From a candidate division LCP-89 bacterium B3_LCP (GTDB taxonomy: Bacteria; Electryoneota; B3-LCP), in NCBI GenBank assembly GCA_005223185.1, contig NJBN01000013.1, positions 1 through 64,000 on the forward strand: 64,000 bases of DNA, given 5' to 3'. The notes below the pieces were generated by a model. It was not told the DNA's origin. It saw nothing but the letters and a program-made list of their open reading frames with translations, and made no database searches. Shown in pieces: positions 3,941 to 34,800 of the stretch; within the stretch, counting starts at the first letter, position 1; every line of letters starts with the position of its first letter. A program made the translations under genes and the position numbers.

Positions 3941-3965
3941 GGTGGGGGAAGCACCCCCACCCTAC
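3941..3965 (-). repeat. REP-like hairpin GTAG-GGTGGGGG-tgctt-CCCCCACC
   Basis: Inverted repeat read directly; GTAG on minus strand. Confidence 0.75.
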
Positions 3966-4006
3966 GGTTTCATGATTACTTGTACACCTGGTTACATGTA
4001 CACTGT

Positions 4007-5650
4007 TTAGTACATGCCACCACCCATGCCACCCATGCCACCACCAGGAGGCATTGCCGGCATTGCCGGCTCATCTTCCGCTTTTTCGTAGATGACCGCT
4101 TCGGTCATGAGCAGCAGTGAAGCTACAGAAGAAGCGTTCTCCAAAGCCACGCGAGTAACCTTGGTCGGGTCGATGACGCCGGCTTTGGTCAGGTCTTCGT
4201 ACTTATCGGTACGGGCATTGTAACCGTAAGCGCCTTCGTTTTCACGCACTTTCTGAACCACCACAGCGCCTTCCATTCCAGCGTTGTTGACGATCTGACG
4301 GATGGGCTCTTCTAAGACGCGCCTCAAGATTTCCAGTCCGACCTTCTCATCACCTTTCAACTTAAGATCTTCGAGGGCGGGAATGCAGCGCAGAAGAACA
4401 ACACCGCCACCGGGGACGATTCCTTCTTCCACAGCAGCGCGAGTGGCATGCAGAGCATCTTCCACGCGGGCTTTCTTCTCCTTCATTTCGACTTCAGTAG
4501 CCGCACCGATCTTCAGGACAGCAACACCGCCTGCCAACTTAGCCAGACGTTCCTGCAGCTTTTCCTTGTCGTAATCGGAAGAGGATGCATCAATCTGCTT
4601 CTTGAGCTGTGACACACGACCTTTGATGTCTTCGGTAGCGCCTGCGCCTTCGACGATGGTGGTGTTATCCTTGTCGATGGTGATGGTCTTGGCGGTGCCT
4701 AAATCGGACAGAACCGCGTTTTCCAGCTTGAATCCGGCGTCTTCGGAAATAACACGACCGCCGGTCAGAATGGCGATGTCTTCCAGCATGGCTTTGCGGC
4801 GATCACCGAAACCGGGAGCCTTGACGGCTGCCACCTTCAACGTGCCACGCAGCTTGTTGACCACCAACGTAGCCAGTGCTTCACCTTCGATGTCCTCAGC
4901 GATGATCAGCATCGGTGCTCCGGACTGTGCCACCTTCTCCAGTACTGGCAGGAGATCCTTCATGGTGGAGATTTTCTTATCATGGATCAGGATTTTGCAG
5001 TCTTCCATTAATGTCTCCATGTCGTCAGGGTTGGTGACGAAGTACGGGGAGATGTAACCGCGGTCGAACTGCATACCTTCGACTACGTCTAAGGAAGTTT
5101 CGATGGACTTGGCTTCTTCGACGGTGATAACGCCGTCCTTGCCGACCTTGTCCATGGCATCAGCGATCAACTTTCCGATGGAATCGTCGTTGTTGGCGGA
5201 AATAGATGCCACCTGAGCGATCTCATCTTTGGAAGTGATCTCCTTGCTGAAGCTTCTCATGTGATCGATCACCTTTTTTACGCCCTTCTCGATGCCGCGC
5301 TTGACGTCCATGGGATTGGATCCGGCGGTAACGACGCGCATGCCTTCCTGCAGGATACTCTGTGCCAGCAGGGTAGCGGTAGTGGTTCCATCACCAGCCA
5401 TATCTGAGGTCTTGCTGGCGACTTCGCGCACCATCTGAGCGCCCATGTTCTCGACTGGATCTTCCAGTTCGATTTCCTTAGCTACGGTGACGCCGTCCTT
5501 GGTGATGGTCGGAGCACCGAATTTCTTGTCGATGACCACGTTGCGCCCTTTGGGCCCCAGGGTCACTTTGACCGATTCAGCCAGCTTATCCACGCCATTT
5601 TTCAGGCCGTTTCTGGCATCAGCGTCAAATCCTATCTGTTTTGCTGCCAT
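4007..5650 (-). CDS. groEL: Chaperonin GroEL (Hsp60)
   Basis: 547 aa, [46 protein letters not shown]..., C-terminal [11 protein letters not shown] tail. Confidence 0.99.
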
Positions 5651-5686
5651 ATTTTAAGTTCCTTTTCTTTGATTTTTTGGATTTAG

Positions 5687-5986
5687 TTAACCTTTCACTA
5701 CAGCCAGAATGTCACTGCGTGATACGATCAGGTATTCCTGATTTTCGTGTTTGATTTCAGTTCCGCCGTACTTGGCATAGACGACTTTGTCTCCGACTTT
5801 CAGGATTTCGGAGAGGACTTTGCCGCCGTCTTTCTTGGTGAGATCATCACCGATGGCGATCACAGTTCCTATCTGGGGACGTTCCTTGGCGGTATCGGGG
5901 ATGATGATGCTTCCGACCTTCTGTTCTTCCGATTCTAACGGCTGGATCAGGACGCGCTCATCCACCGGTTTGATGCCGATACTCAT
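5687..5986 (-). CDS. groES: Co-chaperonin GroES (Hsp10)
   Basis: 99 aa, IKPVDERVLIQPLESEEQKVGSIIIPDTAKERPQIGTVIAIG. Confidence 0.99.
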   Translation of the reverse strand: MSIGIKPVDERVLIQPLESEEQKVGSIIIPDTAKERPQIGTVIAIGDDLTKKDGGKVLSEILKVGDKVVYAKYGGTEIKHENQEYLIVSRSDILAVVKG

Positions 5987-6030
5987 TGTTGTTCTCCTTT
6001 AATTTATGTTTGTTGTATTGGTATCTGATG

Positions 6031-6056
6031 TCGGGGTCAGGGGCGACCCCGACTAC
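6031..6056 (-). repeat. REP-like hairpin GTAG-TCGGGGTC-gcccct-GACCCCGA in the groES leader
   Basis: Perfect 8-bp stem; GTAG on minus strand. Confidence 0.75.
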
Positions 6057-32858: not shown

Positions 32859-32880
32859 TTTTTACCCTAATGAAAGCTTG

Positions 32881-32900
32881 TTTACTTACCGGTAGGTAAA
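32881..32900. promoter_or_regulatory. Palindromic operator candidate upstream of TetR gene
   Basis: TTTACTTACC|GGTAGGTAAA, 10-bp arms with one mismatch. Confidence 0.72.
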
Positions 32901-32987
32901 TAAATATATAAAAATTTTTCCCCCTCGTCAAGAAGTTTTTGAGAAATATTATTTTTTGCAATGGGATCAGGTGTCATATCTACGGCT

Positions 32988-34463
32988 TTATACCTCTTTT
33001 TTAGCCCAATTTCCCTTCAAGTACCAGTAAAAAATTACAGATACTTCCAGAAAGCTGGATATTACCCAGATCCACCAAATGGCGTTTTGATCAAATTCGA
33101 ATTTCCTGGTCATAAGGATGATAGCGGGGACGTGCAAACCCCAGAGACTCACTACCGCTATAATCATCGGCGGTAAATTGTCCCCGGCGCCCCGAAAAAT
33201 GCTTTCGATTATTATATACAGCCCAATAAGCGGGAGAGAGAGCGAAATAATACACAGCATTTGTACACCCATAACAACCATCACTTCATCCTGGAAAAAT
33301 GCTCTGGTAATGGGCTCGGCAAAGGAGAAAATACAGATGGCGAAAGACGAAATAATCACAAGACCGATAAATTGTGCCTGCCAGGCTGTTCGCCATGCCC
33401 GCTTCTGTAATCCTATTCCCAGAATATTCCCGATCAGTGGTGAGATTCCCCTGCCCAAACCGTCCATACACAGTATACCTACCATCAGTAAACGCAAGCC
33501 CATACCGTAGATGGCGATCACTCTGGTCCCCAAATCTGCTATAATTGTGATGACTATAAATTCAGCAAAAGAAAAACTGGAGAATATGACAGCGACAGGC
33601 CAGCCAATCTTAAGCATGTGCAGCATGGATTTCCATTGAACGGGAATGCCATTTCCCAGCTTTATCCTGATGGATAACCGTCCGGATGAAAGCAGCCATA
33701 ACCCTATTACCGTAGTACAGGCAAAACTCAGTACGGAAGCGATAGCAGCGCCTAAGATACCCAATGGTGGTAGAAAACCCCATCCAAATATCAACATTGG
33801 ATCCAGAATGATATTGAGTACCATGCCGGATATCATAATGTACATGGCAGTCAGCGGTGCTTCAATGCTGCGGAAAATTGAATATATCGATTCAAGCCCA
33901 AACCTGAACATGAGGGCTATGAGCATGATACGACCATATCTGATAGCTAATTCCAGGACCTCATCTTCAGCTCCAATGAGGACCAATAAGGGCTTAAGGA
34001 AAAGGAAACCTAAAAACCCAAATATGCAGGCTGAGATGATCTTAAGAAGAAATCCGTTCTTTATCGCAGCGTTAGTGAGCCGGTAATCCTCCTCACCGAA
34101 CCTCCTGCTGATAACCGCTAAAGCGCCCATATCCACCATCTCATTAACAGCGAAGAATAGAAAGTATATCCCTTCAAAGAGGGTGATAGCGGCGACATGC
34201 TGCTCACCTAATTTACCCAACCAGAACAGGTCCACCAAAGTGTAAACGTTCAGAGTGAGAAAGCCGATCATGGAGGGAAAGCCCATGCGGAAGATCGAGC
34301 TGGCGATACTGCGCTGTAATAGAGGAAGGCTCGCAGAAGGTTGCGAGGTAGGTACGGTTTCCCCGTTTATGTAAGATGGGGTTTTGGGATTTTCAGGCAC
34401 ATTGCAAGGTAAGTATAAGAAAACAGTTATACAACCAAAAAGAGAACCTAAGGCGCATTTCAC
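32988..34463 (-). CDS. MATE family efflux transporter
   Basis: 491 aa polytopic; FPSMIGFLTLNVYTLVDLFWLGKLGEQHVAAITLFEGIYFLFFAVNEMVDMGALAVISRRFG. Confidence 0.92.
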   Translation of the reverse strand: MKCALGSLFGCITVFLYLPCNVPENPKTPSYINGETVPTSQPSASLPLLQRSIASSIFRMGFPSMIGFLTLNVYTLVDLFWLGKLGEQHVAAITLFEGIYFLFFAVNEMVDMGALAVISRRFGEEDYRLTNAAIKNGFLLKIISACIFGFLGFLFLKPLLVLIGAEDEVLELAIRYGRIMLIALMFRFGLESIYSIFRSIEAPLTAMYIMISGMVLNIILDPMLIFGWGFLPPLGILGAAIASVLSFACTTVIGLWLLSSGRLSIRIKLGNGIPVQWKSMLHMLKIGWPVAVIFSSFSFAEFIVITIIADLGTRVIAIYGMGLRLLMVGILCMDGLGRGISPLIGNILGIGLQKRAWRTAWQAQFIGLVIISSFAICIFSFAEPITRAFFQDEVMVVMGVQMLCIISLSLPLIGLYIIIESIFRGAGDNLPPMIIAVVSLWGLHVPAIILMTRKFEFDQNAIWWIWVISSFLEVSVIFYWYLKGNWAKKEV

Positions 34464-34584
34464 ATGAAAGACCCGAAAATTATCCTTCTTCCATAAAATA
34501 TTTCACCTCTTGACATTTTCAAGATAAATGCTTATATTCCCTGTAACTTGGTTAAGTCAACTATAATTACCAGTAGTCAGTCTG

Positions 34585-34800
34585 GTGAAACTGGATGTGT
34601 TTGACATAAATGGGCGGAATGTAGGGGCAAGCCTCCATGCTTGCCCGGGTAGCCACAGAGGGCTACCCCTATATTCCTGGTACAATCTCGGCATCCACCA
34701 GATCACTTTTGCCGGGACGGGTCTGCCGTCCGGTATATACATCTACCGGTTGACTATGGGTGATTTCACAGGGATGGGGAAGATGGTGCTTTTAAAATAA
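34585..34800 (+). pseudogene. Orphan CTD fragment interrupted by a REP pair
   Basis: MKLDVFDINGRNV-GASLHACPGSHRGLPLYSWY-NLGIHQITFAGTGLPSGIYIYRLTMGDFTGMGKMVLLK; no catalytic/passenger domain. Confidence 0.7.
34621..34672. repeat. Head-to-head pair of REP-like hairpins (BIME-like)
   Basis: GTAG-GGGCAAGC-ctccat-GCTTGCCC then GGGTAGCC-acagag-GGCTACCC-CTAT, directly abutting. Confidence 0.82.

Follow-up and report, generated by a model that had tools for sequence, protein, structure and literature searches.

Earlier work has described repetitive extragenic palindromic (REP) elements with a GTAG foot and their pairing with genes for REP-associated tyrosine transposases (RAYTs), as well as hybrid dimers and REPs inside genes (Di Nocera et al. 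2013, PMC3733652), and has addressed the GTAG foot and cleavage at CT/CA in three RAYTs (PMC8266576). The landing sites and the movement of REPs are still poorly known. Here, a 64,000-nucleotide stretch of the candidate division LCP-89 bacterium B3_LCP (contig NJBN01000013.1, positions 1 to 64,000; hereafter the window, C2:1-64000 of a 3.79-Mb genome in 18 contigs labelled C1, C2 etc.) was analysed, in which a first-pass annotation had listed 13 GTAG- or ATAG-headed hairpins as a REP/RAYT-like family. The hairpins belong to a genuine set of REP mobile elements that extends over the whole genome, and matching RAYT genes lie outside the window. Moreover, about half of the REPs lie in or right beside the coding sequence of type IX secretion system (T9SS) C-terminal sorting domains (CTDs), and many of them are read in frame as protein. 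The first-pass annotation had thus identified the element correctly, but had overlooked the many copies that are coding and linked to T9SS sorting domains.

The elements resemble the GTAG REP superfamily (PMC3733652) in their GTAG foot, 8-bp stem and short loop, in the presence of many families in one genome, in head-to-head and hybrid dimers, in some intragenic copies and in RAYT genes flanked by REPs. That superfamily consists of short palindromes with stems of 6-13 bp in many copies and is mainly extragenic near gene 3' ends; here many copies lie 3' of genes, but CTD coding sequence contains 71 of the 277. Furthermore, the intragenic copies described in PMC3733652 are scattered over unrelated genes, often for DNA repair, whereas those found here are concentrated on one secretion-signal domain. 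Rickettsia palindromic elements are alike in one property, being palindromic repeats in frame within host proteins, but they affect many unrelated genes, and RPE-4/6 of R. conorii were put in the intragenic CGTC set and reported without association to a transposase gene (PMC3733652). The REPINs of Pseudomonas (Bertels and Rainey 2011, PMC3116915) are similar in having inverted REP pairs as a unit, as at 34621-34672 of the window and in composites of families G+C and G+A; in contrast to REPINs, the pairs here are often of two families and lie within coding sequence. REPs, RAYTs and intragenic REPs being already known, the new part is the placement of REPs in secretion-signal coding sequence. 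A literature search returned no report of REPs tied to T9SS sorting domains, which is weak evidence, since coverage was thin for subscription journals. Judged from ribosomal protein L2, whose best match has 79% identity and whose nearest named relative is a Zixibacteriota protein (75%), the organism represents an uncultivated lineage, probably of the Fibrobacteres–Chlorobi–Bacteroidetes (FCB) group, and no named Bacteroidota genus.

Families, copy numbers, RAYT pairing, positions, reading frames and recurrence in other genera were computed. The hairpin families were sought genome-wide using 14 consensus sequences with at most 5 mismatches, with a first-order shuffled genome as control, and CTDs were counted using a profile built on the window members. 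This profile detected 326 CTDs in the genome; those of the window match PF18962, and their modelled fold resembles the solved T9SS domains 8qb1 and 8glk. After removal of family H and merging of double hits, 277 REPs remained. CTD coding sequence holds 71 of them (5.8 expected), the linker, taken as the 60 nt before the CTD, holds 13 (1.4 expected), and the 90 nt that follow the stop of a CTD gene hold 49 (2.4 expected); the other 144 are not at the ends of CTD genes. Few REPs occur in other coding genes that are clearly real, most such places being short, probably spurious open reading frames (ORFs) or doubtful starts.

At least nine families (A, B, B2/B3, C, D, E, F, G and J) occur in frame across site 1, site 2 and the linker (site 3). 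Site 1 is the strand after GRxV, where the REPs are read as VGVGLAPT (A), VGARHASP (G), VGAFRETPK (J) or VGASLRACPGSHRGLPLQ (B2/B3 dimer), and antisense copies as GFGESDL (F), SGSGATPTT (C) or GSAQDRPL (A). Site 2, the turn before the last strand, GKMVLMK, takes C or F antisense, and in the linker D, E or F antisense gives GGGNTPALQ, SGGQAPALP or VGFGESNLP. REP-free CTDs were mostly fixed, with a 12-residue loop at site 1 (136 unfilled domains) and a 19-residue span at site 2, whereas REP-bearing CTDs varied; at site 2, 150 domains were identical in length and the filled ones were mostly 5 or 8 residues longer. In structure models the CTD is an Ig-like domain similar to solved T9SS CTDs; VGVGLAP forms part of its third strand, and SGSGATPTM falls in the turn that precedes its last strand. 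Chance was rejected as an explanation for the D copies inside T9SS genes, because all of them share one strand and one reading frame and precede the domain by 21-24 nt.

The identity of the elements was evaluated across the whole genome. GTAG was the top tetramer before maximal perfect 8-bp stems (75 stems, 27-fold over base frequency), and CGTC, the mark of the other REP superfamily, was absent from the 20 commonest tetramers before stems; Bacteroidetes are named in PMC3733652 only among the phyla with CGTC repeats. The 14 consensus sequences matched 316 places in the genome and none in the shuffled one, and an exact GTAG head was present in 260 of the 316 copies, indicating that both the enrichment above background and the conserved GTAG at the stem boundary extend to further copies. 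An Rfam scan returned tRNAs only, and no Rfam family fits the hairpins. Clustering gave about ten GTAG-REP families with 8-bp stems, loops of 4-6 nt and 5-55 copies per family: A (GGGTCGGT-CTTGC, with the variant A2 GGGTCGAC), B (GGGCGGAC-CTGTGT, with B2 GGGCAAGC and B3 GGGTAGCC, which pair as dimers), C (TCGGGGTC-GCCCCT), D (GGCGGGGG-TGTTT), E (CGCGGGGG-CTTG), F (GTCGGATT-CCCCG), G (GGGCGAGG-CATG), I (CCCAGTGC-TTCA), J (GGGCGTTT-CGTG) and K (CGCGGCAG). The covarying stems of the first-pass annotation were borne out, with stems differing between families and paired positions within A, B, D and I often changing jointly (compensated vs. broken stem-pair cells: A 17 vs. 9, B 13 vs. 5, D 9 vs. 7, I 12 vs. 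19). These joint changes within several families are genuine covariation, beyond the difference between families. The preferred 5' neighbours were CGC at A, CC at C and D, TT at B and G at E, and the hairpins of B, C, D and E terminate in, or continue into, C|T or C|A, which is compatible with PMC8266576. Family H (CCGCAGGT-GAA), which is found genome-wide with no copy in the window, was dropped as a plain REP, being half of a longer two-hairpin repeat, ATCCCCGAAGGGGAT-ACACTATAGTAG-CCGCAGGTGAAACCTGCGG, of about 15 copies (e.g. C6:179729 and C12:277847).

A search of the genome with PF01797 found ten Y1 genes, all outside the window, consistent with the earlier statement that no RAYT gene is visible there. 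Four of the encoded proteins, the A and E RAYTs among them, exceed the 80-bit cut-off of the NCBIfam RAYT model NF047646, and HIH/HVH and Y..NP motifs are readable. Two inverted A copies flank the family A RAYT (C18:282954-283499), and several E copies, also inverted, flank the family E RAYT (C4:172706-173227). The family C RAYT (C18:285047-285514), a fragment scoring 71 bits against the cut-off of 80, lies between inverted C copies. In addition, a RAYT of genus G003 (C18) with 51% identity to the A RAYT is likewise flanked by inverted A copies. Together with the GTAG enrichment, the Y1/RAYT genes and the inverted REPs flanking three of them support the REP/RAYT-like identity. The first-pass annotation had left two options, coexisting REP subfamilies or a single transposase tolerating stem drift. 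The separate RAYTs with separate flanking families support several REP families, each with its own RAYT, and disfavour the single transposase, since RAYTs A, C and E are each flanked by their own family. As part of the best explanation, at least four RAYT lineages in the genome would go with different REP types.

Another Y1 gene (C14:126150-126782) resembles subclass 2.4 of the TnpA-REP transposases (Bertels group 4), a group in which REPs are known to be read in frame within the gene of the transposase itself (Quentin et al. 2018, PMC6006769). In C14:126150-126782, a double-foot REP read as VGAGFAEGTLKGKPAPTR lies in frame between the HUH and Tyr motifs; the difference from the known cases is that a close double-foot REP, in the same frame, is also present in two T9SS sorting domains. 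A RAYT gene of another genus (G003:C85, ~9734-10260) likewise holds an in-frame double-foot REP (VGARLPRPY), followed by a frame change. Four more Y1 genes have subclass 1.2-like motifs, as judged by eye. Hairpins with a TAG head, CCCGGGAA-TTCA-TTCCCGGG, flank C16:80729-81184 on both sides and C15:70732-71172 on one side; subclass 1.2-like Y1 genes here thus adjoin such hairpins, whereas subclass 1.2 is generally without them (PMC6006769), and this association is absent from those listed in that paper. The minus strand of the contigs carries all ten Y1 genes, which, contig orientation being arbitrary, is chance or unexplained.

These data are very probably explained by REPs that are copied by RAYTs, whose survivors collect at the harmless ends of secreted-protein genes and are spread by copies of the domain. 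We infer transposition by the RAYT, selection as a filter, gene conversion and terminator use from the computed patterns. The REPs would be short, non-autonomous single-stranded-DNA elements, consisting of a GTAG foot and a hairpin, copied by a RAYT (TnpA-REP, HUH/Y1). Insertions into essential sequence would be lost, and survivors would accumulate where a gain of 24-30 nt is harmless. In this genome such places would be mainly the ends of secreted-protein genes, namely the linker, two fixed CTD positions and a few tens of bases past the stop. Within the CTD only in-frame, stop-free copies would survive, and the REP would therefore become protein sequence. The 326-copy domain would further allow REP-bearing segments to spread and swap between genes via duplication or gene conversion, and past the stop B and D often have the shape of intrinsic terminators. 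Non-coding mobile DNA is seen here to become protein sequence again and again at fixed sites of a secretion signal, and the hundreds of paralogous CTDs, filled or empty, offer a natural experiment on where REPs land and which frames survive.

Several points weigh against this explanation. The CTD profile and the gene calls were simple ones made for this analysis, and the net gains at site 2 (+15 or +24 nt) differ from the length of a single clean REP. No CTD split out of frame by a REP was found, which favours the explanation, but badly decayed genes would escape this test. For families D and F, no candidate RAYT was found in this genome. Gene duplication, and not separate insertions, could account for most of the copies within CTDs. 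Same-species copies of the window were sought in genome and metagenome contigs and gave no usable empty site; the insertion junction and the target are therefore unproved. The comparison of filled and empty sites suggested in the first-pass annotation gave filled/empty pairs between genera and none within one species.

One alternative is that the CTD REPs are passengers, one or a few ancient insertions multiplied by domain duplication and gene conversion with no later transposition into the domain, which we consider possible but unlikely. Such multiplication would account for the concentration of site-1 REPs in one CTD subtype (VFDI..YPPGTHQITF), nearly all members of which are filled, and for the clustering of family labels on a CTD tree built without the loops (32 changes of site-1 identity vs. 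55 when shuffled). However, at least 12 combinations of family, site and strand are present, each needing its own entry, 144 of the 277 REPs are elsewhere than at CTD gene ends, and the RAYT genes are flanked by identical REPs. Families A, C, F and G-like elements also occur in CTDs of other genera. Moreover, nearest CTD neighbours at 80-87% identity often carry another REP family, and the site-1 pattern fits several entries plus shuffling among paralogues.

The genus is represented by this one genome, and G001, G003 and G004 denote other, related genera. Among 39 genomes of the phylum, family A was present in 5 of the 6 genomes of this taxonomic family, all of different genera, and nowhere else, and family C in the same five and in one genome of another family. 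In-frame REPs were found at the same CTD sites in G001, G003 and G004 and also in proteins of other metagenomes. Furthermore, homologous passenger proteins were filled in one genus and empty in another, all such pairs being between genera at 48-60% protein identity.

Another alternative is that the encoded peptides are useful, in that REPs would be kept in the sorting domain for providing a working strand or loop and for diversifying the signal. In most families two or three frames are free of stops, yet a given family and strand usually uses just one (sense for A and G, antisense for C), and the frame is shared between sites (by C between sites 1 and 2, by F between site 1 and the linker). 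The peptides used are rich in Gly, Ala, Ser, Thr and Pro, and the modelled VGVGLAP sits on a strand. Tolerance combined with a fixed insertion position would yield the same outcome, and 269 of the 326 CTDs are without a counted REP in the domain or linker, so we regard a useful role of the peptides as improbable. An equally doubtful extension is that the CTD of this lineage is a REP docking slot, in which successive families replace one another at the same strand and the signal now includes the REP-encoded peptide as a functioning and exchangeable component; if true, a DNA-hairpin parasite would write and re-write an export tag.

Copies after the stop codon bear on transcription termination. 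Within 60 bp of CTD genes, all 19 copies of B and 13 of the 15 of D were on the gene strand, and a T run followed the hairpin in 18 of 30 B and 12 of 30 D copies. A terminator form was present in 27 of the 37 CTD genes with B or D after the stop, compared with 95 of 274 REP-free CTD genes (P=2e-5), suggesting that B and D past CTD stops may serve as terminators. That the hairpins in general are ordinary intrinsic terminators or RNA regulators, alike by accident, is nevertheless very improbable, since T runs follow at most 4 copies each of A, C, E, F, G and I, coding sequence contains many copies, on the one strand or the other, no Rfam family matches and the RAYT genes carry the very same hairpins.

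A direct scan of the window recovered all 13 listed hairpins with head and stem as described, most stems being perfect over 8 bp. The one listed at 13145 on the plus strand is real, but is probably on the opposite strand, being better assigned as a degenerate minus-strand copy of family C (13149-13174, head ATAA), because its loop GCCTCC resembles the family C loop GCCCCT. The window is dense in REPs (13 vs. ~5 expected) because it is rich in T9SS sorting domains (16 vs. 5.5 expected), and 11 of the 13 hairpins belong to CTD genes.

Five hairpins lie in the domain. A family A copy (13349-13373, minus strand) is in frame at site 1 of a T9SS type A sorting domain (PF18962; 13227-13475, minus strand) and encodes VGVGLAPT. 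Two plus-strand family C copies are in frame, antisense, at site 2 of minus-strand sorting domains: 28495-28520, encoding SGSGTTPTT, in the domain at 28467-28724, and 30221-30246, with an ATAG head and encoding SGSGATPTM, in that at 30193-30444. The remaining two (34621-34646, plus strand, GGGCAAGC; 34647-34672, minus strand, GGGTAGCC) are the left and right halves of a single head-to-head dimer of two different hairpins, which encodes VGASLHACPGSHRGLPLY at site 1 of an orphan sorting-domain fragment (34567-34797, plus strand).

Six further hairpins lie within about 80 nt past the stop of a CTD gene, all of these genes being on the minus strand. A family D variant (11131-11157, minus strand), with an ATAG head, a poly-G slip and one mismatch in the stem, directly follows the stop of the T9SS gene 11174-13141. 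The T9SS gene 13224-14612 is followed by a minus-strand family D copy 16 nt past its stop (13183-13207) and by the degenerate family C copy at 50 nt. A family D copy on the strand opposite to the gene (15340-15364, plus strand) lies directly past the stop of 15368-16045. On the minus strand, a family B copy (20437-20462; GGGCGGAC) lies 10 nt past the stop of 20473-22125 and runs into TTTCT, and a family D copy (22313-22337) lies 79 nt past the stop of 22417-24291 and is followed by CTTTTCTT, in a terminator-like arrangement. Outside CTD genes, only two minus-strand copies were found, one of family D (3941-3965; GGYGGGGG-TGCTT) 3' of the minus-strand ORF 4007-5650 and an intergenic one of family C with the exact consensus TCGGGGTC-GCCCCT (6031-6056). 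Three proteins, each combining a Porphyromonas-type peptidyl-arginine/agmatine deiminase domain with a T9SS sorting domain, are encoded on the minus strand at 11174-13141, 16904-19372 and 30190-32175. An Amidohydro_3 gene is split into the adjacent minus-strand ORFs 13224-14612 and 14613-15230, by a frameshift or an assembly error.

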